Shown: positions 12,955-44,537 of the stretch, one piece after another
How positions within the stretch are numbered: position 1 is the stretch's first letter
Layout: each line of letters starts with the position of its first letter
Assembly (NCBI RefSeq): GCF_000816145.1
Contig: NZ_CP007141.1
Location: 1,302,001-1,366,000 of the forward strand
DNA: 64,000 nucleotides
Direction: 5' to 3'
Source: Pseudothermotoga hypogea DSM 11164 = NBRC 106472
GTDB taxonomy: Bacteria; Thermotogota; Thermotogae; Thermotogales; DSM-5069
The notes under the pieces: generated by a model
Told to the model about the DNA's origin: nothing
Databases searched by the model: none
Seen by the model: only the letters and a program-made list of their open reading frames with translations
Translations under genes and position numbers: made by a program

Positions 12955-13694
12955 GCCAGCAGAAGCTCGTCAAACCGTACGGTGACCAGTTGAACGATGG
13001 AGCGGTACAGCTTTCCTTCACGTTACCCATTGAGTTCGGGCCTCTGGCGAGGGAAGCAGCGAAAAAGTTCTGCGAAAAGCTTGGTTTTTACGAGGTCACG
13101 ATAGCCACAATGGAAGATCTGCATGAGGGTTACACGTTTTTTGTTGTATATGGAAAAACGGACATGGCGGTGGATATTTCATCGATAAAGGTAATTGCAC
13201 CCAAAATTCAGAGACTTCCGAGAGAGAAAATCGACGAGCTGGTCCTGCAGAAGTTTAGACGCCCCATCGTGGTCGTGGGTGCGACGATCGGCACTGATGC
13301 ACACACTGTGGGGCTCGATTCGATTCTAAACATGAAAGGTTTCCACGGCGATTACGGGCTGGAGAGGTACAAGGCCTTCAAGGTGTACAACCTCGGTGCG
13401 CAGGTTCCACCCATAGAGCTGGTCAGAAAGGTCAGGGAAGTGGGCGCGGACGTGGTGCTCGTTTCTCAGGTGGTAACCCAGAGAAACATTCACATACAGC
13501 ACCTCACCGAACTGATGGAACTGCTCTATGCGGAGAATTTGAGGGACAATCTGCTCGTCATAGTCGGTGGTCCAAGGATAACACACGAGCTCGCACTCGA
13601 ACTGGGGTACGATGCAGGTTTCGGCAGTGGGACCACACCGAGTGAAGTGGCAAACTTCATTGTGCAGGAGCTTTTGAAGAGACGAGGTCTTTGA
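12951..13694 (+). CDS. kamE: Lysine 5,6-aminomutase beta subunit
   Basis: The 247-residue cobalamin-binding subunit. The segment GTDAHTVGLDSI contains the DxHxxG motif that supplies the lower-axial histidine to B12, and VIVGGPRITHELALELGYDAGFGSGT completes the Rossmann-like binding site. A lysine in ERYKAFKVYNLG lies where the family's PLP Schiff-base lysine is expected. No other lysine-fermentation gene (2,3-aminomutase, 3,5-diaminohexanoate dehydrogenase, cleavage enzyme) is in view. Its 3' end overlaps the convergent CCA-fusion gene by 38 bases. Confidence 0.93.
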   Translation: MSQQKLVKPYGDQLNDGAVQLSFTLPIEFGPLAREAAKKFCEKLGFYEVTIATMEDLHEGYTFFVVYGKTDMAVDISSIKVIAPKIQRLPREKIDELVLQKFRRPIVVVGATIGTDAHTVGLDSILNMKGFHGDYGLERYKAFKVYNLGAQVPPIELVRKVREVGADVVLVSQVVTQRNIHIQHLTELMELLYAENLRDNLLVIVGGPRITHELALELGYDAGFGSGTTPSEVANFIVQELLKRRGL

Positions 13695-16290
13695 GTTTCT
13701 TCTCGACGAACTGCATTTCTTGATCGTCGTCGATCGATCCATCGAGCTTCGCGCAGTAAACTTCTTCAAGCAGTTCTCCGATCAGCCTGGATGGTTTGAG
13801 TGCGAATTTCTGCACGATGATTCTACCGTCCACATACCTTAGCTTCGTTTCTCTCAGTTTGGTCAAGAACTGCTTGAGGTACTCCTGCGATTCCGGATCG
13901 AGATAAGCGGCGATGTAGCAGAAACCTTCGGGTGAGATACCCTTGGTCATTTTGTAGATGTCTGAGAAGTTCAGCTTGTTCGAGATGACCTTCGACAGCG
14001 GTACGATCATTTTCTTCAGCAATTTCAGTTCGTCCACGAACTTGCTCGACAGACCGTACCTCGCCTTGATCTCTTCTATCGCCGTATCGCCGTGATACTC
14101 CAAAAAGACGAACATCACGGCGTAAAATCTTTGAACGTTGCCGAAGAATTCCTCGGCCCAAGGTAGAAAGTCTGCCAAAGATCTGAGTTTCTGCTCCATG
14201 GTGACTGTGTAGAAAACACCCGGGAACATGCGTTTGATCACTTCAAAATCGGACAGTCTCTTGAGTGCGGCGAGCCACTTTGGCTCTTCCAGGATTTTTT
14301 CGAACTCCTGTCTCAACCTCTGCCCGCTCACCTTCTCGAGATAACCCTGCCTTACGGCCTCGAGCATGAGCTGAGAAGTTCTCTCTTCTATGCGAAAGCT
14401 GAAACGCGTTTCGAACCTGACCGCCCTCAGAATTCTCGTTGGATCTTCCACGAAGCTGAGCGTGTGCAAACATCTCACCACTTTGTTCTCGAGGTCCTTC
14501 TTGGCACCGAAGAAGTCGAGCAACAGGCCGAAATCTTTCTGGTTCAGCTTTATCGCCATCGCGTTGATCGTGAAGTCTCGCCTGTAGAGGTCCTTCTTTA
14601 TGGTGCTGACCTCCACTTGTGGTAGTTCCGTTGGCGCCTCGTAGTACTCGGTTCGTGCGGTGGCCACATCGATTCTGGTGCCATCTTTCAAGAATAACGA
14701 AGCGGTGAGGAATTTTTCATGTTTGACAAGGGTGGCTTCGAGTCTCTTCGCGGCGTGCTCTGCGAAGGAGAGTCCGTCGCGTTCCACGACAACGTCCAAA
14801 TCCAGGTTTGGATTTCCCATGAGCAGGTCTCTGACGAACCCCCCAACGATGTAAACAGGAAGGTTCAGTTCGTCTCCGAAGCGTCCGAGTAGTCTCAGCA
14901 GATCGGACACCTTCTTCGGGAGTCTCGAAATCAGCAAATCTCTGACGTTCACGAACTGTTGTTGGTCCTCTTCGAAAACGGCCTTCCTTGGGGCTTTCTT
15001 CACAGCATCTGCAAAGCTCGATCTCATCACATCGGTTCTCGTTATGATGCCCACCAGTATGCCGTTTTCAAGCACAGGTATACGACCGATATCGTTTTCC
15101 ACCATGATCTGTCTCACCCTGCTCAATGGTGTGTTGGTGTCCACGACGATCAGCTTGCTCGACATTATGGCCTTCACGGGATGATTCTGCATGCCATGGT
15201 TCATCGCTTTGTCAACGGCCTTCTTCGTCACGATCCCCACCAGTCTGTTCCATTCGATGACTGGCAGACCGTTGTGGCCCGTCCTTTCCATGATCTTGTT
15301 GACCTCACCTATGGTCATGTCCGAATAGACCACGCGCACAGGTGAAGACATGATATCTTTCGCAAGAACGCCCCTGTTGACATAGCGCTTCAACGTTTCG
15401 AGAACGATCTTCTTGATCGAAGAAATATCAGATTCGTTCACCGTGAAGCTCGCAGCCTTCCTGTGACCGCCTCCACCGAGTTCATTCGCCACGCCCCCCA
15501 GATCCACTTCGTTTGAGGAAGTTCTCATTATCACGTGGGATTTCTTGCCCGTTCTCACGATGCAGACAAGAGTTTCCACGTTCTCCAGACTCCAGAGCTT
15601 GCTCACTACGACACCGAGCCCACCAATGAATTTTTCGGTTTCTGCGCTCGCCACGTGCACCGTCAAACCGTCTATCTGGTGGGTTTCGACGTTTGAAAGC
15701 AACTGTTCGAGCAGTTGCTTTTGCTCGAAGCTCAGATCGTACCTTATGTACTCTGCAACTTCTGCGAGGTTTGCACCTTTCTGAAGCAAGAACTTAACTG
15801 CTTCGAGGTCTCTCAGCGTCGTGCTGGTGTAAAGAAGACTGCCAGTGTCTTCGTATATCGCGATGGCGAAGAGCGTGGCGTCGATGGAATCGATCTCGAT
15901 GTTTCTCTTCATGATTTCCTCGACGAGCAATGTAACCGTTGCACCGATGTTCTCTATCTGCTTTTCTCCGCGTATCGTTTGTTCCTTGATCTCGGGATGG
16001 TGATCGTAAATGACGATCCTCGCCGCCTTTTCCACGATCTTTTGAACCTTCTGGCCGAGCCTGTCAGAAGAGGCCGTGTCCACCACGATGAGGGATTCCA
16101 CGTTTTCGTCTGTGAGATCGCTTTCCGTGATGTAGTTGTACTTTTCTTCGTAGATACCCAAAAATTGCGATAAGTTTTGCTGAGGAGCACCACTCATCAA
16201 CACCACGTGGTCCGGATAGAGTTTTTGCGCCGCTACGCACGAAGCGAAACAATCGAAATCTGGATTCCTGTGCCCGACGATGAGCTTCAA
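13657..16290 (-). CDS. DHH phosphoesterase-CBS-CCA/poly(A) polymerase fusion
   Basis: An 877-residue multidomain protein. Residues 1-150 are a DHH domain (GHRNPDFDCFAS at 6-17 and YDHHPE at 95-100); a DHHA1 RNA/nucleotide-binding region with GGGGHRKAA follows at 272-280. Two CBS domains occupy about 310-425 and are adenosine-nucleotide sensors in other proteins. The C-terminal 400 residues are a class II nucleotidyltransferase (GGFVRD at 483-488, metal-binding DLD at 497-499) with the tRNA-binding tail. It probably completes or repairs tRNA 3' CCA ends, with an attached phosphoesterase that may act on short RNA or dinucleotides. The same long architecture is known for the Thermotoga maritima CCA-adding enzyme. 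Confidence 0.88.
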   Translation of the reverse strand: MKLIVGHRNPDFDCFASCVAAQKLYPDHVVLMSGAPQQNLSQFLGIYEEKYNYITESDLTDENVESLIVVDTASSDRLGQKVQKIVEKAARIVIYDHHPEIKEQTIRGEKQIENIGATVTLLVEEIMKRNIEIDSIDATLFAIAIYEDTGSLLYTSTTLRDLEAVKFLLQKGANLAEVAEYIRYDLSFEQKQLLEQLLSNVETHQIDGLTVHVASAETEKFIGGLGVVVSKLWSLENVETLVCIVRTGKKSHVIMRTSSNEVDLGGVANELGGGGHRKAASFTVNESDISSIKKIVLETLKRYVNRGVLAKDIMSSPVRVVYSDMTIGEVNKIMERTGHNGLPVIEWNRLVGIVTKKAVDKAMNHGMQNHPVKAIMSSKLIVVDTNTPLSRVRQIMVENDIGRIPVLENGILVGIITRTDVMRSSFADAVKKAPRKAVFEEDQQQFVNVRDLLISRLPKKVSDLLRLLGRFGDELNLPVYIVGGFVRDLLMGNPNLDLDVVVERDGLSFAEHAAKRLEATLVKHEKFLTASLFLKDGTRIDVATARTEYYEAPTELPQVEVSTIKKDLYRRDFTINAMAIKLNQKDFGLLLDFFGAKKDLENKVVRCLHTLSFVEDPTRILRAVRFETRFSFRIEERTSQLMLEAVRQGYLEKVSGQRLRQEFEKILEEPKWLAALKRLSDFEVIKRMFPGVFYTVTMEQKLRSLADFLPWAEEFFGNVQRFYAVMFVFLEYHGDTAIEEIKARYGLSSKFVDELKLLKKMIVPLSKVISNKLNFSDIYKMTKGISPEGFCYIAAYLDPESQEYLKQFLTKLRETKLRYVDGRIIVQKFALKPSRLIGELLEEVYCAKLDGSIDDDQEMQFVEKKLKDLVSSKAPAQ

Positions 16291-18246: not shown

Positions 18247-19593
18247 CTTGTACCTCTCGTAGATCATCGTGACCCTGTTCGGTTCGATGAAGAACTCGAC
18301 GTCCATCTTTCTGAAGTTCTGGAGCGTGAAACACTTGACATATTCTTTCTCTACCTTTTCGGGAACGAGGACCGAGCTCAACTTCAAGTTCCTGCTCACC
18401 ATCTCCATGAGCAAGAAATCTCCATTCCTTTTGACATCGAAGGCCACACTCTTTTTATAACCTTCGTATCTGCCGACCAACTTGTGCAAGATCTTGTCGA
18501 ACTTGACGAAGTCGAACTCTTCGTCGGGGTCCTTCTTGAGCATCAGCGCGAGCGCGTACATGCCGATGTTCGATAGAGGATAGCCCGCACAGTTCGACAG
18601 CACCGCAACGCCGATCTTCTTGGCTGGTATGTAACCAACAAAACCTGTGTAGATCAAGACCGAGCCACTGTGTTCGACGAGTTTTTCACCCAGAAAGTTC
18701 GGATGGATGATCCAACCAAAACCGTACTTCTCATCGCCGAAGCTCTCCCAAGGCACAGGGATACGGCCTTCCTCCATGGATTCGATCGATTCTTTGGAAA
18801 CGATGCGCGCTCCTTCCAACTCACCTTTGTTGATGTAGAAAAGCAAGTACTTACTGAGGTCCAGCACGTTGCTCAACAGTCCCCCATCCGAGCTGATACC
18901 GTAGGGGAACGGCTTCCTCACGTGTGTGTGGCTCTGTGGATCGAGTACATAACCTGCCGCGACGTTGGGATCCTTTTCGACCTCTTCTCTGTAGAAGTGA
19001 GACCTCGTCATCTTTAAGGGTTCGAGAATGTACTTTTTTACGTAGTCTTCGTACTTCATGTCTGTGACCTTCGAAACGATCCTTCCCAGCATCACGTAAC
19101 CGCTGTTCGAGTAGAAGAACCTTTCGTCAGGCTTTGTGAACGCCCAAGATTCTGCGTCCCTCGCGAACATCAACACATCTTCAGGATCCTTCACGGGAAG
19201 CCAACCTTCTCCGAGGTTGAACATCCCATCTATGAAAGCCTCCGCATAACCCAGCGACGGAATACCCGAAGCGTGATAGAGCAGATGTTTCACACGTATT
19301 GGTTCACCGAATGCTCTGAGTCTCAACGGTAAGTAATCTTCAACGGGTCTTTCAAGATCGATCTTTCCTTCCTCTGCAAGTTTGACGATTGCCAACGCAG
19401 TGAAGCTCTTCGTTATGGATCCGACACCGTAGATGGTGTTTTCATCGGCGGGCGCATAGCTTTCTAAAACTCTGAAGCCGAAACCCCTCTTGTAGACGAT
19501 CTCTCCATCGCTGATCAACGCGATGCTCAGAGCAGGCATCTTGGTCTGTCTCATCTTCTCTAAGATGAAATCTTCAAGCTTGGTGAAATCCAC
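18232..19593 (-). CDS. Serine hydrolase, beta-lactamase class C / DD-peptidase fold
   Basis: About 453 residues with the penicillin-binding-fold catalytic signature SxxK in YGVGSITKSFTALA, a YxN-like element YSNSGYVMLGRI, and a C-terminal HSG box in LVEHSGSVLIYTG. Such enzymes include esterases, D-aminopeptidases and peptidoglycan peptidases; the exact activity cannot be assigned. No signal peptide follows the chosen GTG at 19591-19593, which has GGGGGTG just upstream; upstream in-frame residues reach into the divergent gene and look non-coding. It converges on the propeller gene with a 15-base overlap. Confidence 0.8.
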   Translation of the reverse strand: MDFTKLEDFILEKMRQTKMPALSIALISDGEIVYKRGFGFRVLESYAPADENTIYGVGSITKSFTALAIVKLAEEGKIDLERPVEDYLPLRLRAFGEPIRVKHLLYHASGIPSLGYAEAFIDGMFNLGEGWLPVKDPEDVLMFARDAESWAFTKPDERFFYSNSGYVMLGRIVSKVTDMKYEDYVKKYILEPLKMTRSHFYREEVEKDPNVAAGYVLDPQSHTHVRKPFPYGISSDGGLLSNVLDLSKYLLFYINKGELEGARIVSKESIESMEEGRIPVPWESFGDEKYGFGWIIHPNFLGEKLVEHSGSVLIYTGFVGYIPAKKIGVAVLSNCAGYPLSNIGMYALALMLKKDPDEEFDFVKFDKILHKLVGRYEGYKKSVAFDVKRNGDFLLMEMVSRNLKLSSVLVPEKVEKEYVKCFTLQNFRKMDVEFFIEPNRVTMIYERYKLIKS

Positions 19594-19627
19594 ATCGGAC
19601 ACCCCCTTGAATGCTATTATAAATGGT

Positions 19628-20539
19628 ATGAGATTCGTTCTGATCGTTGTGTTGTTGGTGTTTCTCTCTTCCTGTATTGTGTTGAACGAACCATCGAGCG
19701 ACGAGAACCTTCGCATCGTCGTACTTGCGTACAGGTTCGGCTACAATCTGAGTGAAGAAGAACTCTTGCAGATCGCCGAGCGTACGAGCTACGACGATGA
19801 AGTGCTCGCTTACTACGAGTATTTCAGGACAGGAAATCTACCGAAATTCTTCCAAACCAAGGCTGCGGAAATTTACGATCAAAGGATCCTCAACATCTTG
19901 AAGGAAAATCTTCCCATCGATGAAACAGCTTCTGCAACGATCATCGACGCGTTCGATGAACCTCCTGCCAAAAACGAGTGGGATCCACAAGTGGACCAGA
20001 TCGATCAAGACTTGGTGCAGAGGGTTCACGCGCTTCTGTTGAACGATTGGAAGATCAAAGGATTCTTCTACAGCTGGTGTGAGAAGTATTCCATCGGTGT
20101 GAGTGAAGAAGATCTGAGCCTCTATGCACAGTTCTTGGTGAACGCTTGTGAAGCATCCTCGAAACTGACGTTGAAAAAGACATCAGAAGGATATTCCACC
20201 TTTTTCACAGACGAAGTCGACCTCTCGTTGGTTCCAACCGAGCTCGTCTTGGCGATCTGCTACGTCGAATCGAAGTTCTTTCCTGGAGCTTTCAGATGTG
20301 AGATCAAAGACGGCACAGTTCGAGCAATTTCGGTGGGCTTAGGTCAGATACTCGTCGATGCAGATTCTTTAACAACTCAACAAGACATAGGTGATGGAAA
20401 GAAAGATCTGTACACCTTCGAGCTTTTGAACACTCACTACTTTGATGAGCTCTTCAAGGCCACGGATTTGACACAAGTGAAGGTTGGCGTGCTCTTCTGC
20501 CGAACCTTGCTTTCTCTGTTGATGCAGAAGTTCAGATAG
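19628..20539 (+). CDS. Lipoprotein with a shortened lytic transglycosylase-like domain
   Basis: A 303-residue protein whose N-terminus MRFVLIVVLLVFLSSC is a lipoprotein signal with lipobox LSSC. The middle is helical. The segment VLAICYVESKFFPGAFR followed by ISVGLGQIL resembles the catalytic Glu-Ser (ES) and GxxQ motifs of soluble lytic transglycosylases. The fold should continue for about 40-60 residues with a tyrosine-containing helix, but the frame stops at LLMQKFR. Since degenerate DNA starts directly downstream, the 3' end may have been lost. The ATG at 19628 starts the signal peptide directly. Confidence 0.6.
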   Translation: MRFVLIVVLLVFLSSCIVLNEPSSDENLRIVVLAYRFGYNLSEEELLQIAERTSYDDEVLAYYEYFRTGNLPKFFQTKAAEIYDQRILNILKENLPIDETASATIIDAFDEPPAKNEWDPQVDQIDQDLVQRVHALLLNDWKIKGFFYSWCEKYSIGVSEEDLSLYAQFLVNACEASSKLTLKKTSEGYSTFFTDEVDLSLVPTELVLAICYVESKFFPGAFRCEIKDGTVRAISVGLGQILVDADSLTTQQDIGDGKKDLYTFELLNTHYFDELFKATDLTQVKVGVLFCRTLLSLLMQKFR

Positions 20540-20551
20540 ATTCTTCCTCCC

Positions 20552-20680
20552 TCACAGATAGGCGAAAAACACCTGCAAGACAATCACCTTGAAAATCGAA
20601 ATGACCAAGCTCTTGAATCCATAACTGATGCCCTGGAACATCTTTTTCTTTGGATTCAACCTAGGAAGCTCAATAACCAT
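20552..20680 (-). CDS. Unrecognised 42-residue open frame with one membrane segment
   Basis: The frame starts at ATG 20678-20680, with GGAG about ten bases upstream, and ends at 20552. It encodes a basic head (PRLNPKKK) and a hydrophobic tail (SLVISIFKVIVLQVFFAYL). The same frame is open upstream to about 20760. It lies in a region of gene remnants and may be the 3' tail of a lost membrane-protein gene rather than a real small protein. Confidence 0.25.
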   Translation of the reverse strand: MVIELPRLNPKKKMFQGISYGFKSLVISIFKVIVLQVFFAYL

Positions 20681-20775
20681 TGTTTGTTGCTCCACACCAA
20701 CGCGATCTTTGTTGTGAGAATGGGATTTTTGGTAGCTCTCAGGCTGTCTTACACCGAGTTATCTTAACTCCATGG

Positions 20776-20885
20776 CACAGACCGCATGAGTGGAATCCAA
20801 AAGTTCTGGTGTATCCTACCCCACAACTACTTGGGCGTAAACAACCGCTCCGTGGAAGGCAGCCTGACGGGCTGCTAAGAATCCC
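20776..20885 (+). mobile_element. Possible right-end relic of an IS200/IS605 (TnpB-type) element
   Basis: A GCAGCC...GGCTGC hairpin (20859-20875) followed by TAAGAATCCC resembles the 3' guide-RNA/right-end region of TnpB-only elements. It ends where homology of the adjacent glycosidase pseudogene stops. No transposase gene can be read to its left. The call rests on remembered motif similarity only. Confidence 0.25.
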
Positions 20886-21540
20886 ATCCCCTTTTGTACA
20901 AGAACCTGTCAACCAAATACCGTGGTTGACGCCGGTAACTTGCCAATCAACTTCGCTTGAATCCAAGTTCAAGACTTTGAAGACTCCGTAAAACCGGAGA
21001 AACCATGGCAAAAACCAACGACTTCTGCGTTCGGTGAAGTGCGAACGAGTTGGGTAATTTCAAAGACAGGATTGGCGGTTTGCAAAAGTCAAGCGTTTGG
21101 AGCGGATGCCTCCATCATCTCTGCTACATCCAGGATGAATAAGAAGGCAAGAATGTATGAATAGATTGAAACCATGTGGAGCTCTTGACTGTTTATGTCC
21201 CTGTAGTATCCGTGTTTTTCTCTGATCTTCGTCATTACATCCCACTCTCGACACCGTCCGGGTGGTACCTTGGTGAATACGGGTATGCGGTGTTTATCAC
21301 GAAACCCGAACCAACAATCATCCTGCTCGAATCCATGGTTTTCTCGATCTTGACATCTGATCCCATTTCCCACGCGTACTTCCTCGCAAGGGTGAACGAA
21401 GCGTTCAATCGTTCTTCGTTTATACCCATCAAACATACCTCAGTCGGTTTTGAGGGCTCATCGGTTTGGATTACATCTCCCACTAGTCGTAATGAGAACC
21501 TCACACTTCCAGCGCCGACGAAGGTGATCTTCAAAGACAT
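20886..21540 (-). pseudogene. Degraded family 4 glycosidase (AglA-like alpha-glucosidase) pseudogene
   Basis: Read leftward from ATG 21540, the frame encodes a typical GH4 N-terminus with the NAD-binding FVGAGSVRFSLRLVGD and an INEERL segment. Homology then moves to a second frame (KIREKHGYYRDINSQELHMVS), hits an in-frame TGA where the family has Trp (before LLQTANPVFE), continues to VVGFCHGF, shifts to a third frame (FYGVFKVLNLDSSEVDWQVTGVNHGIWL) and shifts again at RFLYKRG. The three shifts lie near 21260, 21005 and 20910. The last 60% of the protein is missing. The intact enzymes hydrolyse alpha-glycosides using NAD+ and Mn2+. Confidence 0.85.
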
Positions 21541-21599
21541 CCGTCGATTTTGAAGCTCACTATTTCACAAAAACTCTTAGGTTGCCAAATTTGGCCGCA

Positions 21600-21733
21600 C
21601 TATACTTTAATTTGTACCAACCCGATATTTTCCACTTGGACTCGATCTTCGTTGTCTATCATCACAACGTCGTCCACATAGAACTCAAGGGTTGAATTGG
21701 GAGATACAACGTAACTTTCCATTCTCGATCCAA
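21600..21733 (-). pseudogene. Possible 3' scrap of a carbohydrate-binding module gene
   Basis: The frame read leftward gives SPNSTLEFYVDDVVMIDNE and ends at a TAG (21600-21602). LEFYVDDVVMI resembles the last strand of CBM4/9/16-type modules, which often close secreted glycosidases. Upstream the frame breaks within 20 codons. The similarity is short. Confidence 0.3.
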
Positions 21734-22038
21734 GCTATTGTGCGTAGGACGTTCTATCGTCCACTTTGTATCTTTGTTGGATCGTCAAGGTTATCTGTTG
21801 ATCTTTTCGCATCTTCCTTCGTTCCCCTTAGAAATCGTGTGTTTGTCTCGTCAGGTTAAATTAACTCCAAGCAGGAATATTTCTACCCAAATTCTTAACC
21901 TATTCTACCGATGTGATTTCACAACATAAAAACCCCACATTCCCAAAGAAAAAACGAGCCTCCGTGAGAAAAAGGGAATTTTTGCCGATTAATCAGCGCT
22001 TTTTACGTCAGACAATTGATTATCACTTTTCAAGATCC
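21734..22038. other. Intergenic stretch without a recognisable gene
   Basis: This AT-rich stretch is interrupted by stops in all frames and gives no convincing protein similarity. It separates the gene remnants to its left from the ribose-type ABC operon and its probable promoter to the right. Confidence 0.5.
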
Positions 22039-22065
22039 TTGACTTTTTTTAATCAAAATCATAAT
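22039..22065 (+). promoter_or_regulatory. Candidate promoter of the ribose-type ABC operon
   Basis: TTGACT at 22039-22044 and CATAAT at 22060-22065 are 15 bases apart in an AT-rich tract, about 90 bases before the permease start. The spacing is short, so this is only a candidate. Confidence 0.4.
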
Positions 22066-22152
22066 TTTTTTGTAGAGAAAAATTTAGGTACTTCGATGGA
22101 ATTGCTCAGCTCTGTAAAAAAATAAAAAGCACAAATCGAGGAGTGATGCATT

Positions 22153-23115
22153 TTGGTCAAGCAAAATGATATTTTCAAACTGAGATTTTCCAAAGAACTT
22201 GGACCACTTGTAGCGTTTGTTGCACTTTTTACCTTCACAGCTATCGTCAATCCGAGGTTTTTGACGTCCTTCAATTTGCAATCCTTGGGAAGACAGATTG
22301 CCATTTTTGGTCTCTTAGCAATTGGAGAAACGTTCGTGATCATCTCTGGTGGTGGTTCAATAGATCTGTCAGCCGGCTCTGTGGTTGCTCTCAGTGGAGT
22401 CTTGGTTGCCTGGTTTATGAAGCAGCAACTCTCTATTTGGTTGAGCATTCTACTGGTTTTACTCATCTGCAATGTCATTGGGATGTGGCATGGTCTTGCC
22501 GTGACAAAGTTGAAAGTGCCAGCCTTCATTGTCACGCTCGGCACGTTGACGATCGCCAGAGGAGCTGCAGCTGTGATAACCAAAGGCTGGCCAATCGTGG
22601 GTTTACCCAGAGGTTTCTTGACCATAGGTCAAGAGAATTGGATGGGTGTGCCGATATCTTTTTGGATATTCGCGATTATTACTGTGGTTTCTCATTTCTT
22701 TCTCACAAAAACCGTTTATGGTAAGCATTTACGCGCCGTGGGAGGCAACCAAGTCGCTGCGAGATTTTCCGGAGTTAACGTAGAAAAAGTCAGATTCATA
22801 GCGTTCACCGTGTGCGCTTTACTCTCTGGACTCGTTGGGATTATAGTGGCTTCGAGGTTATCCCAAGGTCAACCAGGTGTTGGAACTTCTTACGAACTAT
22901 TTGCGATCGCTTCTTCGGTGATCGGAGGAACGAGTTTGGGAGGCGGTGAAGGAACCATAATCGGAGCTGTTATAGGTGCAAGCGTAATAAGCTTGTTGTG
23001 GAACGCCCTCGTCATGCTAAACGTTTCGACCTATTGGCACAACGTGGTCATAGGTTTAGTAATAGTCGTTGCGGTCACGCTCGACGTTTTGAGGAAAAGA
23101 TCAAGCGGGGGATGA
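22153..23115 (+). CDS. Ribose-type (CUT2) sugar ABC transporter permease
   Basis: A 320-residue RbsC-like membrane protein with about nine to ten hydrophobic segments. The conserved GGGSIDLSAGSVVALSG and the cytoplasmic GGNQVAARFSGVNVEKVRFIAF loop identify the family. The TTG at 22153 has GAGGAG nine bases upstream. It is the first gene of a permease, binding protein, ATPase operon, an unusual order since the binding protein or ATPase normally comes first. Substrate is unknown; pentoses, inositol or related sugars are typical. Confidence 0.9.
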   Translation: MVKQNDIFKLRFSKELGPLVAFVALFTFTAIVNPRFLTSFNLQSLGRQIAIFGLLAIGETFVIISGGGSIDLSAGSVVALSGVLVAWFMKQQLSIWLSILLVLLICNVIGMWHGLAVTKLKVPAFIVTLGTLTIARGAAAVITKGWPIVGLPRGFLTIGQENWMGVPISFWIFAIITVVSHFFLTKTVYGKHLRAVGGNQVAARFSGVNVEKVRFIAFTVCALLSGLVGIIVASRLSQGQPGVGTSYELFAIASSVIGGTSLGGGEGTIIGAVIGASVISLLWNALVMLNVSTYWHNVVIGLVIVVAVTLDVLRKRSSGG

Positions 23116-23149
23116 CTATTCCCTCGCAATCCTAATGGGAGGTGTTTTT

Positions 23150-24124
23150 ATGAGAAGGCTCTTTCTGGTTGCTGTACTAACAGCCTTGGTAGGGGTTATC
23201 TCTTTGGCTCTCACAGTAGGGGTTATTGGCAAATCCGTTCACCCATACTGGTCGCAAGTTGAGGAAGGCGTCAAAGCAGCCGGTAAAGCCCTGGGGATTA
23301 ACGTCAGATTCTTCGTTCCCTCGAAGGAAGACGTTAACGCCCAACTTCAGATGCTCGAGGCCTTCATTGCTCAAAAATTCAACGGTATAGCGATAGCTCC
23401 TTCAGATCCGAGCGCTGTTATACCCGTCATTGAGAAAGCTTTAAAGCTCGGTATACCTGTTATAACACTCGATACGGATTCACCCGGGAGTGGGAGATAC
23501 GTTTACATCGGTACAAACAACTACAATGCTGGGTACGTCGCCGGTACCATGATGAAAGAACTGCTTGGAGGAAAAGGGAAAGTCATGATTGGGACAGGTT
23601 CTCTGACTGCGATGAACTCTCTCGAGAGGATTCAAGGTTTCAAAGATGCAATCGCTGATACTGATATAAAGATAATTGACATACTGAACGACGAAGAAGA
23701 TGGTGCGAGGGCCGTTGCACTCGCGGAAGCTGCTTTAAACGCTCATCCAGATCTGTCAGCGTTTTTCGGTGTGTACGCATATAACGGTCCAAGTCAAGCT
23801 TTGGTCGTGGCCAACGCTGGTAAGAAAGACAAAGTGAAGATCGTGTGCTTTGACACGACACCAGATATCCTTTCTTACGTAAAAGATGGTGTGATACAAG
23901 CTACGATCGGTCAGAGACCGTACATGATGGGTTACTTGTCTGTCACGGTCTTGTTCTTAATGAACAAGATAGGCGTGCAAAACACTCTAGCCTTACTACC
24001 AAAGGTCACCGTCGATGGTAAAACCGATTACATGATCGACACGGGCGTCGATGTGGTTACCCCAGCGAATTTGTCGGAGTATCTGAAAGAAATGGAAACA
24101 TTGGGCATTCCAATAAGGTTTTGA
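23150..24124 (+). CDS. Ribose-type sugar-binding protein
   Basis: A 324-residue periplasmic binding protein (type 1 PBP fold) with signal peptide [22 protein letters not shown]. Typical blocks are [56 protein letters not shown] and [14 protein letters not shown]. It captures the sugar for the adjacent permease and ATPase. The ATG at 23150 has GGGAGGTG about six bases upstream. A strong hairpin follows its stop codon. Confidence 0.93.
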
Positions 24125-24125
24125 A

Positions 24126-24152
24126 AAAGAAGGGGGTTCATCCCCCTTCTTT
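24126..24152 (+). terminator. Intercistronic hairpin after the binding-protein gene
   Basis: An eleven-base perfect inverted repeat, AAAGAAGGGGG at 24126-24136 and CCCCCTTCTTT at 24142-24152 with loop TTCAT, starts two bases after the binding-protein stop. It lacks a long T-run, so it probably acts as an attenuator or as a 3' stabiliser giving more binding protein than ATPase. Confidence 0.75.
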
Positions 24153-24177
24153 GACATGGAGGAGAGTTGATAGTTGT

Positions 24178-25698
24178 ATGCAAGAACTTCTTGTGGCGAA
24201 GAAGGTCACGAAAAGGTTTCCTGGTGTGATAGCGCTCGACGGAGTAGATTTTGAGGTTCAAGAGGGTGAAATTTTATCTCTCATAGGTGAAAACGGGGCT
24301 GGGAAGTCAACCCTCATAAAAGTCCTCTCGGGCGTATACAAAAAAGATGCGGGAGAGATCTTCTTGAGTGGCGAGAAAATAGAATTTCACAGTCCCGCAG
24401 ACGCTTTCAAAAAGGGTATAAGCGTCATTCACCAAGAATTAAACCTCTGTGACAACATGACAGTCGCCGAGAATATGTTCTTGGCACATGAGATGATAAA
24501 AGGAAAGAGCTACAGCTTGACAAGTGTTGTGAACGACCAAAGTATGTACGACAGGTCTCAAGAACTCCTCGAGATGATAGGTGCACGCTTTTCTTCACGG
24601 ATGTTAGTCCGAGACCTGAGTACGGCGCAAAGACAGTTGGTCGAAATCTGCAAAGCTCTGACGCGTTCACCGAAGGTAATTTTCATGGATGAGCCAACTT
24701 CATCTCTGACGCTGGAAGAAACGAAAAAACTATTCGAGATCATTAAAATGCTCAAAGATCGAGGCATATCCGTCGTGTTTGTTTCTCATAAGATCAACGA
24801 GGTGATGGAAATCAGCGACAGGATCATCGTCATGAGGGATGGAAAAAGGGTTGGAACATTGTTCAAGGACGAGTTCAACGAAGATAGTATAATACAACTG
24901 ATGGTCGGTAGGAACATCGAATACTTTCCGCATTTGGAAACGAACCCAAAGGAGATCCTACTCGAAGTCAGGAACCTGTCGTGGAAAAACAAGGTGAGAA
25001 ATGTCTCCTTTTATCTCAGAAGAGGCGAAGTGATCGGTTTTGCCGGATTGATAGGAGCCGGAAGAACTGAGACTGCATACCTTCTGTTCGGCATAAACAA
25101 AAAGGATTCAGGGGAAATATACATAAATGGAGAAAGGGTCGAGATAAATTCTCCCAAGGATGCTATTGAACAAGGCATAGCTTTGATACCAGAAGATAGA
25201 AAGTTGCAAGGTTTGATCCTCCGAATGACTGTTAAAGACAACATTTGCCTACCTGTTCTTGAAAAAATAAGCAGATTTAGATTCATTCTCAACGAAGCCA
25301 AGCAGATTCAAGTTTCAGAATCCTTAGTCCAAAAGTTCTCCGTGAAAACCCCATCAGTAAACCAGATTGTTGAGAATCTATCTGGAGGGAATCAGCAAAA
25401 GGTCGTTCTCTCGAAATGGTTGGCAACAGATCCGGAAATAATCATCTTCGACGAACCAACCAGGGGTATCGATGTCGCAACTAAAGCCGAAATACACAGG
25501 ATGATAAGAGAGATCGCTGCGAGAGGAAAGGGAGTGATACTGATTTCCTCAGAACTACCGGAAATATTGAACCTGAGCGATAGAATCATCGTCATGTGGG
25601 AAGGTCAGATAAACGCCGTTCTCGACAACAGGGAAAAGAAAGTTACCCAAGAAGAAGTGATGTACTACGCCTCGGGTAAAAAGATAATAAAGAATTAA
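24178..25698 (+). CDS. Ribose-type sugar ABC transporter ATPase (two nucleotide-binding domains)
   Basis: A 506-residue RbsA/MglA-like protein with tandem ATPase domains. The first has Walker [10 protein letters not shown], signature DLSTAQRQ and Walker B VIFMDEPT. The second has the degenerate Walker [11 protein letters not shown] expected of the family, signature LSGGNQQK and Walker [11 protein letters not shown]. It energises uptake through the 22153 permease. The ATG at 24178 is preferred, although its ribosome-binding site AGGAGAG is rather far upstream. Confidence 0.92.
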
Positions 25699-25732
25699 AC
25701 AAAACAGGCTCGGTCGTCAGCCCTCTTTGATG

Positions 25733-27466
25733 TTAAATTTTGAACTTTCTCACCTGTTCCACCAAGCTTTCTGCTATCGAACTCAATTCCTCAGACAAAC
25801 TGCTCACGTTCTGTGCAGCATTCGCCTGCTGTCTCAACGCCTGCGTCATCTCTTCCACCTGCTGCGCTATCGTTGTGATCGATTTGGTAGCTGTGTCCAT
25901 CGCACTGCTCATCTCTTCTGCAGCCGCACTCTGCTCCTGCGCACTCGCTGCCAAACTCTCTATCTGACTCAACATGCTGTTTATCTGCCCCATTATCTTG
26001 CCGAACTGCTCTGACACCATCTGTGATTGCTTGCTTATACCCTCAACAACGTTCACTACCTCTTTCGTAGCTCCATCTACCCTCATCGCTCCTTGGCTTA
26101 TCTGTCCAAGTATCTGTCCTATCTGATTCGTCGCTTTCTTGCTCTCCTCTGCAAGCTTTCTTATCTCATCCGCAACCACTGCAAAGCCTCTGCCTGCTTC
26201 TCCTGCTCTGGCTGCCTCTATCGCAGCGTTCAACGCCAACAAGTTCGTCTGCTCTGCTATGGAATTTATCGTCTGCAGTATTTGACCTATGTTCTTCGCT
26301 TGCTCGCTCAGTTCTCCTACCACCAAAGCTGTCTGTTCCACTTTGTCTTTGGCTTGTTTTATCATCTCCACGATGCTCTTTATGGCACTTTCACCTTCTT
26401 TGGCTGCCATGCTCATTTGGCTCGATCTTTCTGTGAGCTGTTGTGCCGCCTTGGATACGTTCTGTGCGCTCGCTGCTACTTCTTCTATGCCACTGGTGAC
26501 TTCTTGTATGGAAGCAGATGCGTTCTGTGCCGATTTGTTGACTTCTTCCATCTGTGATGAAAGCTCTTCTGAAGAAACGCTCAGCTGCTGAGCTGACGAG
26601 GCCAACTGTTCACTCGAGGATGCAACTCTGTCAGAACTTTGGGATATCTCCGTCACCATACCGTTCAGATCCTGCTGCATCTTTTGGAGGGCCTGTGATA
26701 GTTCGTAGAATTCCTTGCTTCTGAACTTTGCCTCGAGTTTTTGTGTTAGATCACCTTGAGCGGTCTTGACGATGAACGATGATAGTGCGCCAAACGGTTT
26801 GATCAACACGATTTGAATGAAGAGATATCCTATCACCACCGCTGCGACTACGGCTATCACAACAACGATGATCGCGTTCCTCAAAAACGTCTTGTTACCA
26901 GCCGAAATGATCTCGTTCACCCTCTGTTGTGGCACGCCCACGAACAGTATTCCTATGACGTTGCCTCTCTCGTCCAAGATGGGATCGTAGGCTGTGAAAT
27001 AATCTTTGCCCAAGATCTTCGATGGTCCCACATACCTTTGTCTCTGCGTTATTGGTTTATAGGCTGCGCTTTCCTTTCCAAGGAAAGTTCCAACGGCTCT
27101 CGTTCCGTCGTCTTTACGGATGGAAGTTGAAACCTTTTTGAAGTCGTCGCCTTCGGCTTGAAAGATCGTTGCGACCACGTTCATCTGCTTGCTTATCTTG
27201 TCAACCACTTCGAATCTGTCTTTGATTGGTTTACCGTCCTTGTCCACGAGTTGACCGTCTTTCAAAGAGAGCGTTCCGTACTCGCTTTTGACGTATTCTT
27301 TTAGAACTTCGAGTGCGCCGTTGATCTGCTGTGTGTACATTTCATCAGTGACGTTGGAGATGGTCCTTTTGTTTTGCAAGCTCGTCGCCATGAAAAGTGG
27401 GACCAAACCTATGAGCGTAACGGCGACGACGAGTATTATGCCGTAGACCCTCAGAGACAATCTCAT
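25733..27466 (-). CDS. Methyl-accepting chemotaxis protein with extracellular Cache domain
   Basis: A 577-residue receptor: TM1 at about 5-28, an extracellular Cache-type sensor domain at about 30-185 ([13 protein letters not shown] at its end), TM2 at about 195-217, then a HAMP-like linker and a long signalling coiled coil. The trigger tip [43 protein letters not shown] is the diagnostic CheA/CheW-binding hairpin. It converges on the ABC operon, which suggests, but does not prove, that it senses the same sugar. The ATG at 27464-27466 has AAGGAGG ten bases upstream. Confidence 0.92.
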
Positions 27467-27727
27467 TTTGCACAACCTCCTTAGGTTTTGCTTCCAAGTT
27501 GAATGGGGAAAGTTGTCACTTTGAATAAACTAACAAGCACAACGTTAGAAAAAATGAATGTAATTAAACGAGTAAGTAAACAAGAACGAAAGGAAAGTAT
27601 AAAGAAGCTTGATGTGAACAAAATCAAATATAATGCGTACACTCTAAAAGTGAACAGCGTTGCAACATCGGAATTTCAACGAACACTCATTCGCATTTGT
27701 GAGTGAATCTCACGGCTCTTTTTCGGA

Positions 27728-29590
27728 TCACGTACAATTCAACCAAACCGCCATCTTTCCAGCCTGTCTGTTGCACCAAAGATGGTACGGCACCAACGTG
27801 ATGTTTCGTTCTGTCTTGAGAGTGCACCTCGAATATGGTCTGTAGAGCTGCATGTCTTTTTCTATTTCAAAGCCTCGGCCTGTCAAGAATGTTGTCCTTC
27901 CCAACGTCGAGTCGTATTCTACGTTCTCTTTGAGAGGTTCGTTTGGATCCAGCGTGAAGGTCCACACGTCAACGTCTGGATTGTCGATCTGCTCTGCGCA
28001 GAAAAGAATTGGTCCTTTGAAGACCGCTATCTTGTCGGTGTTCTCTCTAACGTACGGGTGAGACTGCACCAATCTCACGTTCATTTTGAGCCTCAATACG
28101 ATTCTGTTCAAACCCTTCCACTCTCGTGAGAGTTTCGCATAACCGTTCTCGAGGTTGAAATCCACTTCTCCATCGTTCAAGAAAATCTCGAAGTCCTCCA
28201 CCCAACTCGGTATTCTCAAGAACAGATCGAAACGAACAGGATCTTCTGTTTTCACGAGTATTTCTACTTCGCTCGAGAAAGGATAATGTGTGTTCTGCCA
28301 GATCGAAACCTTTTCACCGTTCAAGGTAGCTTCACAGTGACTGTTCTCGTAGAGATGAACCCAAAGGCCTTTGTCTGACACCGTGTACAGATAGTTCGTC
28401 ATGCTCGGCAAAAAGCGTGCCAAGTTGGTGGGGCAACAAGCGCATTTGAACCACTCTTGTCTGACATGCTTGCCAGAATCCTCCAGCGGGTTCACGTAGA
28501 AGTAATGCTTCCCATCTATGGAGATGCCCGAGAGCAGACCGTTGTAGAGGACAAGTTCCATCGTGTCGGCGAAAACACTCTTTCCAGTTGCCAAGAGCAT
28601 TCGCCAGCTCCACATGAAATTGGCTATCGCGGCGCACGTCTCTGCGTACGCCCTTCGATTGGGAAGCTCGTAATCTTCGCCGAAGGACTCTCCTTCGTAC
28701 CTCGATCCAACTCCACCAGTGATGTACATCTTTTTCGTGATCATGTTGTTGTAGAGTTCGATCAGAGTTTTGAAGAAACTCTCTTCTTTCGTTTCCAAAT
28801 AAAGATCTGTAGCACCACAGCACAGATACAACATCCTCACGGCATGGCCCACGACCTCGTTCAATTCCAAAAAAGGTTTGTGATCTATCGTGTATTCCTT
28901 GCCGCCGGCGTATCCTTTGCCTCTCTCGAGGATGAAGAAGCGTGCCAGATTCAAATAATCTCGGTTCTTGGTCTGCCTGAACAACTCCACGAGCGCCATC
29001 TCGATCTCTGGATGTCCGCTCGCACCTTTTTTCTTATCCGGGCCGAAAGTTTTGTTTATGTGATCTGCAAATCGCAATGCCACGTTCAACAATGTCTTCT
29101 CCTTGGTCACTCTGTGGTGTGCTATCGCCGCTTGGATCAAGTGGCCTGCGCAGTAAAGCTCGTGCATGTTGGCAAGATCGGTCCATCTATCTTTCTCTCT
29201 TTCGAAGGTGAAATACGTGTTCAGATACCCATCTGGAGATTGCGCGTCGGCGATCTCTTTTGTGACCTCGTCGAGCATGGCTTTCAACTTCTCGCGCTGT
29301 TCAGGATTTGCATAGATGAGAGCGTAAGAACAACCTTCGACCCACTTGTAGACGTCCGAGTCGTTGAAGAAGTACCCTTGGAATTCACGATTTATTTTTC
29401 CACTCGCCCTCCTGAAGTTGTCTATTCTCCCCGTGCTTTCGAGTAGCTCGTACTGGCTTGGAATGGTTATCTCTAAAGCCCTCTCCAAGTACCGTCCCAG
29501 ATAACCGTTGATACGTACGTTTTCCAAGGCAACAGGTTTTAAAAGAGCGGCTGGGCTTTCTTCGCAACGCATGAGGAAAGTGTCATTCAT
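27728..29590 (-). CDS. GH127 beta-L-arabinofuranosidase-like enzyme (DUF1680)
   Basis: A 620-residue cytoplasmic enzyme. The known GH127 active site is intact: Glu301 in GSRYEGESF, the zinc ligands Glu317 and Cys319 in YAETCA, and the Cys385-Cys386 pair in FKCACCPTN, one of which is the nucleophile in HypBA1 of Bifidobacterium. GH127 enzymes release terminal beta-L-arabinofuranose from plant arabino-oligosaccharides. The ATG at 29588-29590 follows GGGGGGTC and overlaps the previous gene by eight bases. It is the last gene of the 17 kb array. Confidence 0.9.
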   Translation of the reverse strand: MNDTFLMRCEESPAALLKPVALENVRINGYLGRYLERALEITIPSQYELLESTGRIDNFRRASGKINREFQGYFFNDSDVYKWVEGCSYALIYANPEQREKLKAMLDEVTKEIADAQSPDGYLNTYFTFEREKDRWTDLANMHELYCAGHLIQAAIAHHRVTKEKTLLNVALRFADHINKTFGPDKKKGASGHPEIEMALVELFRQTKNRDYLNLARFFILERGKGYAGGKEYTIDHKPFLELNEVVGHAVRMLYLCCGATDLYLETKEESFFKTLIELYNNMITKKMYITGGVGSRYEGESFGEDYELPNRRAYAETCAAIANFMWSWRMLLATGKSVFADTMELVLYNGLLSGISIDGKHYFYVNPLEDSGKHVRQEWFKCACCPTNLARFLPSMTNYLYTVSDKGLWVHLYENSHCEATLNGEKVSIWQNTHYPFSSEVEILVKTEDPVRFDLFLRIPSWVEDFEIFLNDGEVDFNLENGYAKLSREWKGLNRIVLRLKMNVRLVQSHPYVRENTDKIAVFKGPILFCAEQIDNPDVDVWTFTLDPNEPLKENVEYDSTLGRTTFLTGRGFEIEKDMQLYRPYSRCTLKTERNITLVPYHLWCNRQAGKMAVWLNCT

Positions 29591-31556
29591 CTTTTGACCC
29601 CCCGTTTGAGAAGAGGATTGGAAATTCCGTGATCCTGAGCGCAGTGCAACCGTAAGGAACCAGATCGATCTCTTCGATTTTGGCGTTCTTAAGTGTGTTC
29701 TTGTCAACTCGCGGTGGCTCGGCGGCCGAACCGTTCAACAAGGTCCAACCTTCGACTCTGAAAGCCTTGACTTTGATCTTCATCAACGGTTCTTTTCCTT
29801 CGAATGGCGTGGAGTGCTTCGCGACGTTTCTTTCGAGGTTGAACTCGTTGGGCAAGATGAGTGCGTAATTCCAATCGCTCTTGGGATAGACTTCGTAGTC
29901 TGCGAAGGGCTCGTTCCCTTTGATCTTTCTCCATTCCTCCTCTATCTTGAGGCTGAACACCAAGGGTCCTCTCTGAACGAAAGCGGTGTGATCGGACCAA
30001 GGTATGGTCTGGATTTCGAAGTGGAACATGACCTTTACCCTGCTCTTTCCCTTGGGTAAGTGGAGCACAGCGAACTGGGTGTTGTCGTACTCTCTTCTTT
30101 CATCGTTGAAAACCACAGTTGTGCTTCGAGACCAAGAAGGTATCCTCAACATGAGTCTTATTTCTCTGTCCGTGGTGACGAAGAATTCGACGGCGTCATC
30201 GAAGGGATAGTTCGTTTCCTCGACGATCTGAACCGACTCAGAGCCGTTCCATTTGTATTCCAAAACACATGGAGCGTAGGCCATTTTGACGAAGCAATCC
30301 TCAGACGACTTCATCCAGAGACTCTTTGCAAACTTTGGCCAACCTTGATGCATGTTCGCCGTGCAGCAACCAAAGTTCGGTTCTAAACCGAAGATGTTCG
30401 AATCCTCTTTGTTGTTGTACCAGTTCCTCTCTTGAACATTGCACAGAACTTGGTTGACCTGTTGGTCGTACTGGTGTGCGTAAAAACCAGGCCTAATCGT
30501 TGCAGGCAGTGCGTTGTACGCGACCACTTCGAGTCTGTCTGCGAACAAAGGATCTCCGAACACTTTGAAAAGGTTCTCCAAGCTGTACATGAATTCCACG
30601 ACTGCGCACAGTTCGGTGCCCTGTGTTGTCTTTCTACCGTTCAGATGCTCATCACCGCTGAACATCCCGTTCGGTTGACCGTGATGTTTCGTCAGCGATT
30701 CGAGACCTTTCAAGGCGACCGAATGAAAGCGTTCGTCGTGCGAAAGTGCGTATCTCAAGGCGGGTTCCTTGAACGCCATGGCGACGTTCACGACGTGTGT
30801 GGTGTGGTAAATGAAGAACAGTTTCTCGATCTCTTCCTTCGTCAGTCCAACCTTTGCAGGATCACGAAGTAGTTCTTTCCATCCGTTGTACGTTCCGAGC
30901 ATTTTCATGAACTCCTTGGGAAGGTATCTCTCCGTGGGCTCAACGTAAGGAAAGTTCTGGAACAAGCTGGACCAGTCGATGGTCTGTTTCAAGATCTCTT
31001 TTGCCAGTTTCAACAGAAAAGGCTTGTTGGTCCTTTCGTACAGCCAAAAGATCGGAATGAGATTTTCAAATCCTCTCGCCCAAGCCCAGTGTTCGAGAGG
31101 TCTGTACTTCAACTCTTTCGACTGATACTCGAAATATCTGATCATGAAGCTCAAAACCCTCGAATCCTTCGTCGCTTCGTAGTAACTCGTCAGGGCTTTC
31201 AACATGACCATCCTCGGCCACCAATCGACGTTGCTCTTCGGTCCAAAGAAACCTTCCACTGTTTGACTCGAGAGGACTGAGTTCATCCATTTCTCAGCTT
31301 TGCTGATCAGACCTTTCTCAGAGAGGATGTACGCCAGTGGAACCAGCCCGTCACAATAGTAAGGACCTCTTTCCCAGTCTTCCCCATTTCCACCCAACCA
31401 CGCGCTGTTCGGGCCAACATCGGGCCAAATCTCGTCAAGGTGACCCGTGAGACCTTCCGCCTGAAGTTCGAGTTGCTTCTTCAACCATCCGGTTGGTTTC
31501 ACGTATCCCAGATCGATCTCTTTAAACTTCGACACGATTCTCGAACTCAAAGCCAT
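29583..31556 (-). CDS. Second DUF1680/GH127-related glycosidase
   Basis: About 657 residues, of a different DUF1680 subgroup from its neighbour. The equivalents of the catalytic elements are QGTELCAVVEF (Glu and Cys) and NFGCCTANMHQGWPKF (Cys pair). The N-terminal half is an (alpha/alpha)6 toroid and the C-terminal half beta-rich. It is probably also an arabinofuranosidase or a related furanosidase with another linkage preference. The start is unsure: ATG 31556 overlaps the previous stop, but AGAGG is better spaced for the TTG at 31550. Confidence 0.82.
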   Translation of the reverse strand: MALSSRIVSKFKEIDLGYVKPTGWLKKQLELQAEGLTGHLDEIWPDVGPNSAWLGGNGEDWERGPYYCDGLVPLAYILSEKGLISKAEKWMNSVLSSQTVEGFFGPKSNVDWWPRMVMLKALTSYYEATKDSRVLSFMIRYFEYQSKELKYRPLEHWAWARGFENLIPIFWLYERTNKPFLLKLAKEILKQTIDWSSLFQNFPYVEPTERYLPKEFMKMLGTYNGWKELLRDPAKVGLTKEEIEKLFFIYHTTHVVNVAMAFKEPALRYALSHDERFHSVALKGLESLTKHHGQPNGMFSGDEHLNGRKTTQGTELCAVVEFMYSLENLFKVFGDPLFADRLEVVAYNALPATIRPGFYAHQYDQQVNQVLCNVQERNWYNNKEDSNIFGLEPNFGCCTANMHQGWPKFAKSLWMKSSEDCFVKMAYAPCVLEYKWNGSESVQIVEETNYPFDDAVEFFVTTDREIRLMLRIPSWSRSTTVVFNDERREYDNTQFAVLHLPKGKSRVKVMFHFEIQTIPWSDHTAFVQRGPLVFSLKIEEEWRKIKGNEPFADYEVYPKSDWNYALILPNEFNLERNVAKHSTPFEGKEPLMKIKVKAFRVEGWTLLNGSAAEPPRVDKNTLKNAKIEEIDLVPYGCTALRITEFPILFSNGGSKDE

Positions 31557-34500: not shown

Positions 34501-34591
34501 AAACCACATCCGCCTCGTCAACGTTCTGAACGATCTCGACATTTTCGAGCGACAGATCGAAGAAATCGTTTTTCACCAGCAAGACTCTCAC
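31556..34591 (-). CDS. Large GDE-like (alpha/alpha)6-barrel glycosidase with extra N-terminal domain
   Basis: A 1011-residue protein. Residues 1-200 (MRVLLVKNDFFDL, VVWFHGIFD, AVFYGEAAAEVS) look like a class I amidotransferase/ThuA-like Rossmann domain without a catalytic cysteine. A beta-rich domain follows, then from about 430 an (alpha/alpha)6 barrel like glycogen-debranching and GH63/GH78-type enzymes: YAWYFGRDSEWVSMALLDIGDW, GHGWIEGGKLYGSDAELYLN and NPNGYHEGTVWPLFTGW carry candidate catalytic acids. A C-terminal beta domain ends it. Substrate is unknown; context suggests plant-type oligosaccharides. The GTG start at 34589-34591 follows GGGAG. Confidence 0.72.
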   Translation of the reverse strand: MRVLLVKNDFFDLSLENVEIVQNVDEADVVWFHGIFDPHIVQRVLGHRHAVFYGEAAAEVSKIIEQNDVVESFELVMSKDPWDKRGFQSYKYHPIFESLHGGFYTYLVLDKDTSEKVFCYRGKKARIVAVEKRYISVIRENALIWEYELDSKKILCIGGYLNFKSSHIQYNIHEAKQFVKNILEYMLSGSKKPALYWPSCSNETKLDRGLEFTKFRIKPLKDFETFELLVHEGFGEDYANLCGRRILANLKENGEFDEVWVHPFRIVKSISFKIDEKKISEQKIFHRIYPDRVIHETENFKLTSFVSLEKPIFMIQLDFKDGKTQELEVDFNIDSRIMWPFDEAFNCGKSFNICDETGEVVFQTSDGMLKAFIKMNVPTQTRWSNDENSLTFTMSTNVDDSVSICLGGFLEQEQVPYEVDFTAELIEYSSFLKNYLNTTLQLETNDELFDRMFQLAKIGTIKFLTSVPGIGEGLMAGYANSKPGWFSARPGYAWYFGRDSEWVSMALLDIGDWETVKKNLQLLMKYQRIDGKIFHELTSSGVVHFDASDSTPLFLLVFHRYVNHSGDVEFLREDWKNVVKAFEFCLSSDRNNDGLIENTIEGHGWIEGGKLYGSDAELYLNAIWLSALEGTIELAELMNDSEVKRKAEEALQRTKRAIGRFYDERTGLYILGIKHNGGRLNHFTVMTAVAVYLGAIGFEDAKRQVIPYASNDFSTDWGVRIISKSSGIFNPNGYHEGTVWPLFTGWVSLAEFKAGSTHSGFNHLLCNLLSARHFAKGYISEVYHGEVYKPSGICPHQAWSESMAIQPLVEGLLGFEANFLNRKILLSPQIPWNMNELRVKNLKVATASAELSFKRIRTDENHFQEVYQTEVPEGYRMDFSVWVPKQAENIDVLLNGQRVDFEVLEGVFNKKLRLKEENCSELNVIVSYTLPFELAAVQPDPSPFCPSSTFRLVSLTKDESDYRLLLEASSKDEALEELSKIFKVHRGFTFDVFEEAPRKNTFCVLVKRNER

Positions 34592-34597
34592 CGAGAC

Positions 34598-36901: not shown

Positions 36902-36911
36902 GCAAGATCCC

Positions 36912-39251: not shown

Positions 39252-39282
39252 GTAGAGCCTCTGTCTCGTCTTGAGGTTTTTT

Positions 39283-39996: not shown

Positions 39997-39999
39997 CCC

Positions 40000-40023
40000 C
40001 TATTCTTTCATCTATTCTTTCAT
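40000..40023. repeat. Perfect 12-base tandem duplication
   Basis: CTATTCTTTCAT occurs twice in a row (40000-40011 and 40012-40023), between the MalG-type permease and GntR genes. It repeats the codons around an out-of-frame permease-like tail described in the findings. Confidence 0.9.
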
Positions 40024-40051
40024 ACCAGTCAGGGCTATGCCCTCAACGATG

Positions 40052-40894: not shown

Positions 40895-40911
40895 GCCGAT
40901 CACTCCTTGCG

Positions 40912-43134: not shown

Positions 43135-43162
43135 GATCGGTCACCCCAATTTAAGAAATGAA

Positions 43163-43183
43163 GGAGGGGATCCTGTCCCCTCC
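43163..43183 (-). terminator. Intercistronic hairpin after the second binding-protein gene
   Basis: An eight-base perfect inverted repeat (GGAGGGGA and TCCCCTCC, five-base loop) lies just downstream of the binding-protein stop and before the fused permease gene. It lacks a T-run and probably attenuates or stabilises, as in the operon at 24126. Confidence 0.7.
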
Positions 43184-43188
43184 TCAGA

Positions 43189-44478: not shown

Positions 44479-44537
44479 AACCTTACCTCCCCCGTTTTGG
44501 AGGTCCATCAGATGGCCTCCGTTGTTTTTCCCGATTG

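Follow-up and report, generated by a model that had tools for sequence, protein, structure and literature searches.

The N-terminal half of a GH4 gene, about 220 of about 470 codons, lies on the minus strand from position 21540 to position 20893, where it meets the right end of an IS200/IS605-type insertion sequence (IS). That this stretch is a GH4 pseudogene is nearly certain. The best explanation of its present form, to which a probability of roughly 0.7 is given, is that a GH4 gene of the 1vjt/3u95 type was cut by a deletion that joined an IS right end to about codon 220 of the gene. Positions refer to the window, i.e., the whole 64,000 nt stretch analysed (bases 1302001–1366000 of a genome assembled in one contig, 2165416 bases long and 99.97% complete). 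The preliminary description of the locus, a single fresh wreck, missed remnants of the IS, of a MATE transporter gene and of a CBM22-like sequence. Thus the locus is a small scrapyard of dead pieces, a layered site in which the IS end would mark the position of the cut.

The GH4 pseudogene and its lesions

GH4 homology begins with the start codon at 21540 and can be followed in three frames of the minus strand, as first described, until about 20893. Tblastn with the protein of locus L007 detects three pieces, at 21534–21253 (61% identity), 21250–20984 (59%) and 20990–20910 (67%), with a joint E value of 7e-64. The first piece scores 55.8 bits with Pfam PF02056 (curated cut-off 23.2), and in a genome-wide search with this model both relic pieces are above the cut-off, at 53.2 and 44.4 bits. 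The GAGS, CHG and NHG motifs, which have a role in cofactor and metal binding in GH4, are all readable in the pieces. As a control for chance matches, the GH4, MATE, xylanase and neighbour proteins were searched against 20 shuffled copies of 20001–24000, and the best E value was 0.096.

The single nonsense codon and the three frameshifts of the preliminary description are present. The in-frame stop is a TGA at 21091–21089. Tblastn frame changes place the first frameshift near 21250 (approximately 21253–21247) and the second near 20990 (approximately 20996–20984). The third, near 20908 (approximately 20910–20907), was read by eye: the L007 match stops at 20910, and the residues RFLYK, at about 20907–20893, are back in the first frame and adjoin GIWL, where six relatives have NRFRYEG, NRFLYEG and similar sequences. 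It should be noted that the RFLYK stretch is a reading of the translation and carries no BLAST score. In addition, a 12-nt in-frame gap removes four codons near 21145. These lesions are seen directly, and any of them may have been the one that killed the gene. The span of 20886–21540 given earlier for the relic is correct to about 20893; the remaining bases, 20886–20892, read as part of the IS element.

The rest of the gene is lost, as had been claimed. PF11975, the C-terminal GH4 domain, has no match at the relic locus. Genome-wide, it has four matches at E up to 1. Three belong to intact genes, with frames of 475, 421 and 510 aa, and the fourth is weak (E 0.185) and at another place. An orphan C-terminal half carried elsewhere by IS-driven rearrangement was thus not found by this search, in which no such half was detected outside intact genes. 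What is left is an ordinary pseudogene, known in kind: the N-terminal half of a GH4 gene and not a GH4 enzyme, from which probably no protein is made.

GH4 type and intact relatives

The name alpha-glucosidase was applied to the relic in the preliminary description, and it agrees with the best NCBIfam model, NF041089 (AglA). However the first piece scores 87.5 bits against a cut-off of 650, a shortfall explained by the fact that only a fragment is left, and the nearest solved structures are 7br4, 1vjt and 3u95 (E about 1e-28), with 1obb, which we take to be AglA, behind at 3e-18. The protein of 1vjt is TM0752 of T. maritima, which was subsequently reported to be an alpha-glucuronidase. Thus alpha-glucosidase is a database name only, and the intact enzyme may have been an alpha-glucosidase or an alpha-glucuronidase.

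It had been proposed to look for an intact copy elsewhere in the genome or in relatives. The first search succeeds: the five PF02056 matches in the genome are the two relic pieces and three intact paralogues, one of which (475 aa, C1:1465922) is 60% identical to the relic. This paralogue adjoins a GH130 gene and an alpha-galactosidase-like gene, and NF041089 is its best NCBIfam model also (689.1 bits, above the cut-off). In relatives no close copy was found. Among 103 genomes of the phylum, 20, our own included, have matches at E up to 1e-20, and the best apart from the relic is 61% identical, so that the original gene and its neighbours could not be compared directly. An exact-short-peptide scan of contigs, which may leave out near genomes, gave 65 loci with a best identity of 52% and missed Thermotogota genes at 53–61%. 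A few short open frames of 93–169 aa were also matched in G003, G004 and G035.

Insertion sequence remnants at the break

The sequence into which the GH4 homology runs was identified with an nhmmer model built from the last 230 nt of 14 copies of an element in the same genome. A plus-strand right-end remnant is found at 20821–20893 (44.0 bits, E 5.9e-13); it covers model positions 134–210, so that the outermost 20 nt are absent, and GH4 codons follow at model position 210 with no spacer. A second, inverted and more diverged right-end remnant is on the minus strand at 20835–20718 (28.2 bits, E 3.9e-8). Elsewhere in the window no match is better than E 5. In 200 shuffles of 20540–20900, run as a control for the inverted remnant, the best score was 1.8 bits. 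That the inverted match merely reflects the element's own hairpins was ruled out, as the minus strand of an intact element reaches at most 4.1 bits versus 28.2. A clean right end including GTCAA near the junction was also discarded, since GTCAA reads as GH4 codons.

The element is an IS200/IS605-type IS with TnpA and TnpB. Pfam detects PF01385 and PF07282 (TnpB) in one genomic copy and PF01797 (Y1 TnpA) in full copies, and the genome has three stop-free Y1 frames of 135 aa. Positions 20842–20893 recur at 14 other places in the genome with 88–94% identity over 42–52 nt, and at 10 of these the 3′ part of TnpB is found upstream of the right end by a short-string test. Among themselves the 14 copies agree at 93.9% or more over the last 150 alignment columns. 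The plus-strand remnant has 74–84% identity to them and is thus an older copy or belongs to another lineage. With the whole element as query at E 0.01, nothing beyond right ends is detected in the window, neither a left end nor TnpA, and of TnpB at most the last ~30 codons are present. When the genomes of 40 other relatives were searched at E up to 0.01, parts of 20700–20910 were found in 11 (G003, G006, G010, G011, G012, G019, G021, G023, G034, G038 and G040); in most of these genomes the part is a 47-nt core of the right end, and a few matches, including the only one in G010, are to the inverted remnant only. Rfam searches, which would include guide RNA families of such elements, gave no match at E 0.1 for two genomic copies of the element, and three chance matches in 20300–22200, all under gathering scores.

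MATE and CBM22-like relics

To the left of the IS remnants is an intact plus-strand open reading frame of 338 aa (19523–20539), without a Pfam family at E 0.001, that is the last gene of a block common to congeners. Orthologs with 58–63% identity and an identical leftward gene order are found in G001, G002 and G004; in the fourth congener, G003 (81% complete), none was detected at E 1e-20. Further left, a single frame at 13657–16290 has DHH, CBS and poly(A) polymerase domains and is about 90% identical in three congeners over the parts that were fetched.

Between the 338-aa frame and the IS remnants, a stretch on the minus strand at 20647–20555 matches 31 residues in the C-terminal part of a MATE transporter (residues 382–412 of 468), with 58% identity to the G004 protein (E 1.1e-6) and 52% to that of G002 (E 1.2e-5); the last ~56 MATE residues are not seen there. 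The identification of so short a relic rests on tblastn and on gene order, as a MATE gene on the opposite strand is next after the shared block at the corresponding place in three of four congeners (G001, G002 and G004). Pfam assigns MatE in G002 and G004, and the G001 gene was identified by tblastn at 95% to G002. The genome also has, at another place, a MATE gene with 53% identity to the G004 one. Where the three congeners have the MATE gene and, after it, other genes, the window has the block 20540–25732, which begins with the MATE relic and ends with the ABC operon. The first large frame past MATE in G002 matches window gene 25733–27475 (66%), presumably a chemotaxis receptor-like gene.

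The weakest of the relics is upstream of the GH4 sequence, at 21806–21630 on the minus strand. It contains stops and resembles the end of a domain of xylanase-type proteins, which we take to be CBM22 (tblastn E 1.4e-5 with a G004 protein and 3.8e-4 with a G019 protein). Pfam assigns no family to 57 residues of it, and no match to the rest of the GH10-type xylanase is present in the window at E 0.01. The stretch is probably a xylanase relic. A xylanase-type frame is near intact GH4 in two of 11 fetched loci (L148 and L155). PF02018 is found in the genome in two stretches of one 640-aa frame, presumably laminarinase-like, and in one weak match.

Age of the decay

Inactivation had been considered recent because residue conservation is high, and this is only partly upheld. 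Alignment counts and the tree (34 rows) were made without L022, for which no frame was recovered, and L003, of a distant subtype. The relic is 56–63% identical to 15 intact relatives of its type over 208 columns and retains 76 of the 90 columns invariant among them. This count cannot separate decay from divergence, as the figure for the intact L155 is scarcely higher (90 of 105 columns invariant among the other 14). Of 41 columns that show no variation among 33 intact GH4 proteins, the relic has lost three (95% interval 1.5–20%), a small number; each of six intact rows examined has lost none or one.

Against a recent death, the end branch of the relic (1.02) is the longest in the tree; those of intact genes are up to 0.44 in its clade and up to 0.68 elsewhere. 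However two intact genes stand behind an inner branch of 1.28, so that long branches are not exclusive to wrecks. The relic groups with L008 and L010 with weak support (80/74). Without constraint, the excess of its branch over its sisters should, by estimate, have altered about half of the invariant columns. As few were lost, most of the divergence seems to predate the death of the gene, and the time since then may be short to moderate.

The adjacent ABC operon

The relic adjoins a ribose-type ABC operon, as was described, and this operon is intact. On the plus strand it consists of a permease (22153–23115; BPD_transp_2, PF02653, E 2e-42), a sugar-binding protein (23135–24124; Peripla_BP_4, PF13407, E 5.7e-67) and an ATPase (24121–25698; ABC_tran, PF00005, in two stretches). 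The suggestion that this was a sugar locus that lost its enzyme finds no backing in relatives. At the 11 fetched loci with intact GH4 genes (flanks of about 1 to 8 kb), neither the permease nor the binding protein is matched at E up to 1e-15; four of them match the ABC ATPase at 23–31%, as any ABC ATPase would. At E up to 1e-40, a search of 12 other genomes detects relatives of the binding protein in two, G008 (84%) and G011 (81%); the four congeners give no match. No GH4 gene is near them in the 18.0 kb fetched from G008 or in the 16.0 kb from G011; the G011 stretch lacks a permease, and one of its flanks is limited to about 0.6 kb. The operon as a partner of the GH4 gene was thus set aside. 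The two share a place and perhaps an arrival; a shared function is not supported by the relatives.

To the right of gene 25733–27475 is a GH127 gene, accompanied by a relative of it (25%, E 2e-13) and by other genes for glycosidases. They belong to a minus-strand run at 27728–44508, a large glycan locus that also has GH116-like, GH38-like and MGH1-like hydrolase genes, a GntR regulator and an ABC importer.

Origin of the junction

That GH4 and IS homologies meet at about 20893 is observed; the deletion and the order of events we infer. A resident IS200/IS605-type copy would have been present with its right end toward the GH4 gene. A deletion would then have started 20 nt inside this right end and ended at about codon 220, and the same event would have taken the C-terminal half and joined both sides. 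The frameshifts, the stop and the small deletion may have arisen before or after it. The decay zone sits between the intact conserved gene at 19523–20539 and the intact ABC operon. Insertion of the element into the GH4 gene itself is unsupported, since only right-end IS sequence is present in the window. Confidence in the junction is tempered by the by-eye reading of the last GH4 codons.

A rather unlikely but serious alternative, which excludes a deletion from the IS end and is excluded by it, is that the gene was killed by a frameshift or stop and shortened independently of the IS, the IS ends being later or unrelated arrivals that abut the GH4 sequence. The several lesions in the surviving part and the presence of the element only as right-end sequence are consistent with this. 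The meeting of the two homologies without a spacer speaks against it, although this bears on the truncation and not on the first lesion. It is very improbable that the half gene is still used, e.g., to make an NAD-binding protein of only some 100 residues (21540–21235). The first open frame, of 101 aa, does keep its start codon and the GAGS motif, but three of the 41 invariant residues have been replaced, and no intact gene in the tree has so long an end branch.

It is scarcely credible that the gene is intact and that errors of sequencing or assembly produced the frameshifts and the stop. Only the number of lesions in 650 bases speaks for it, whereas base errors leave unaccounted the missing C-terminal half, the IS remnant, the MATE relic and the CBM22-like relic with its stops, and the assembly is nearly complete in one contig. 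Finally, the two outward-facing right ends at 20718–20893 could in principle be a palindromic, gene-less IS605-type derivative, mobilised in trans and making a putative TnpB guide RNA, whose arrival in the MATE gene made the site accessible to pieces of GH4, xylanase and ABC genes. This is far-fetched; likewise gene-less are four of the 14 other copies. These MITE-like copies (L040, L045, L046 and L048, at G000:C1 773634, 759989, 338830 and 1173220) have a left end of about 88–110 nt (79–85% alike) joined to a right end of 168–174 nt (96.5–98.2%).

Comparison with known systems

The value of these results is in annotation, and no open question is addressed by them. New here are the IS right ends at the break, the MATE relic and the CBM22-like relic. 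The locus cautions against two conclusions drawn from sequence only: that a gene with well-conserved residues must have died recently, and that genes have a common function if they are neighbours.

As in other members of the GH4 family (PF02056/PF11975) of the 1vjt/7br4/3u95 type, the relic has the N-terminal NAD-binding half with its three motifs; it differs in having no C-terminal half and in its three frameshifts, one stop and one 12-nt gap. AglA (NF041089) is the best model for both relic and paralogue, but the relic is far below the cut-off and 1obb is not the nearest structure. Both IS remnants correspond to the right end of the IS200/IS605-type element resident in the genome; in contrast to it, the pair has no left end, and its two right ends point outward, away from each other. 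Decay of genes by IS-associated deletion is known in general, and the same truncation at an IS end, with neighbouring relics, is seen here. Nothing differs in kind from such decay; at this locus about 1.3 kb holds a stack of several dead pieces.
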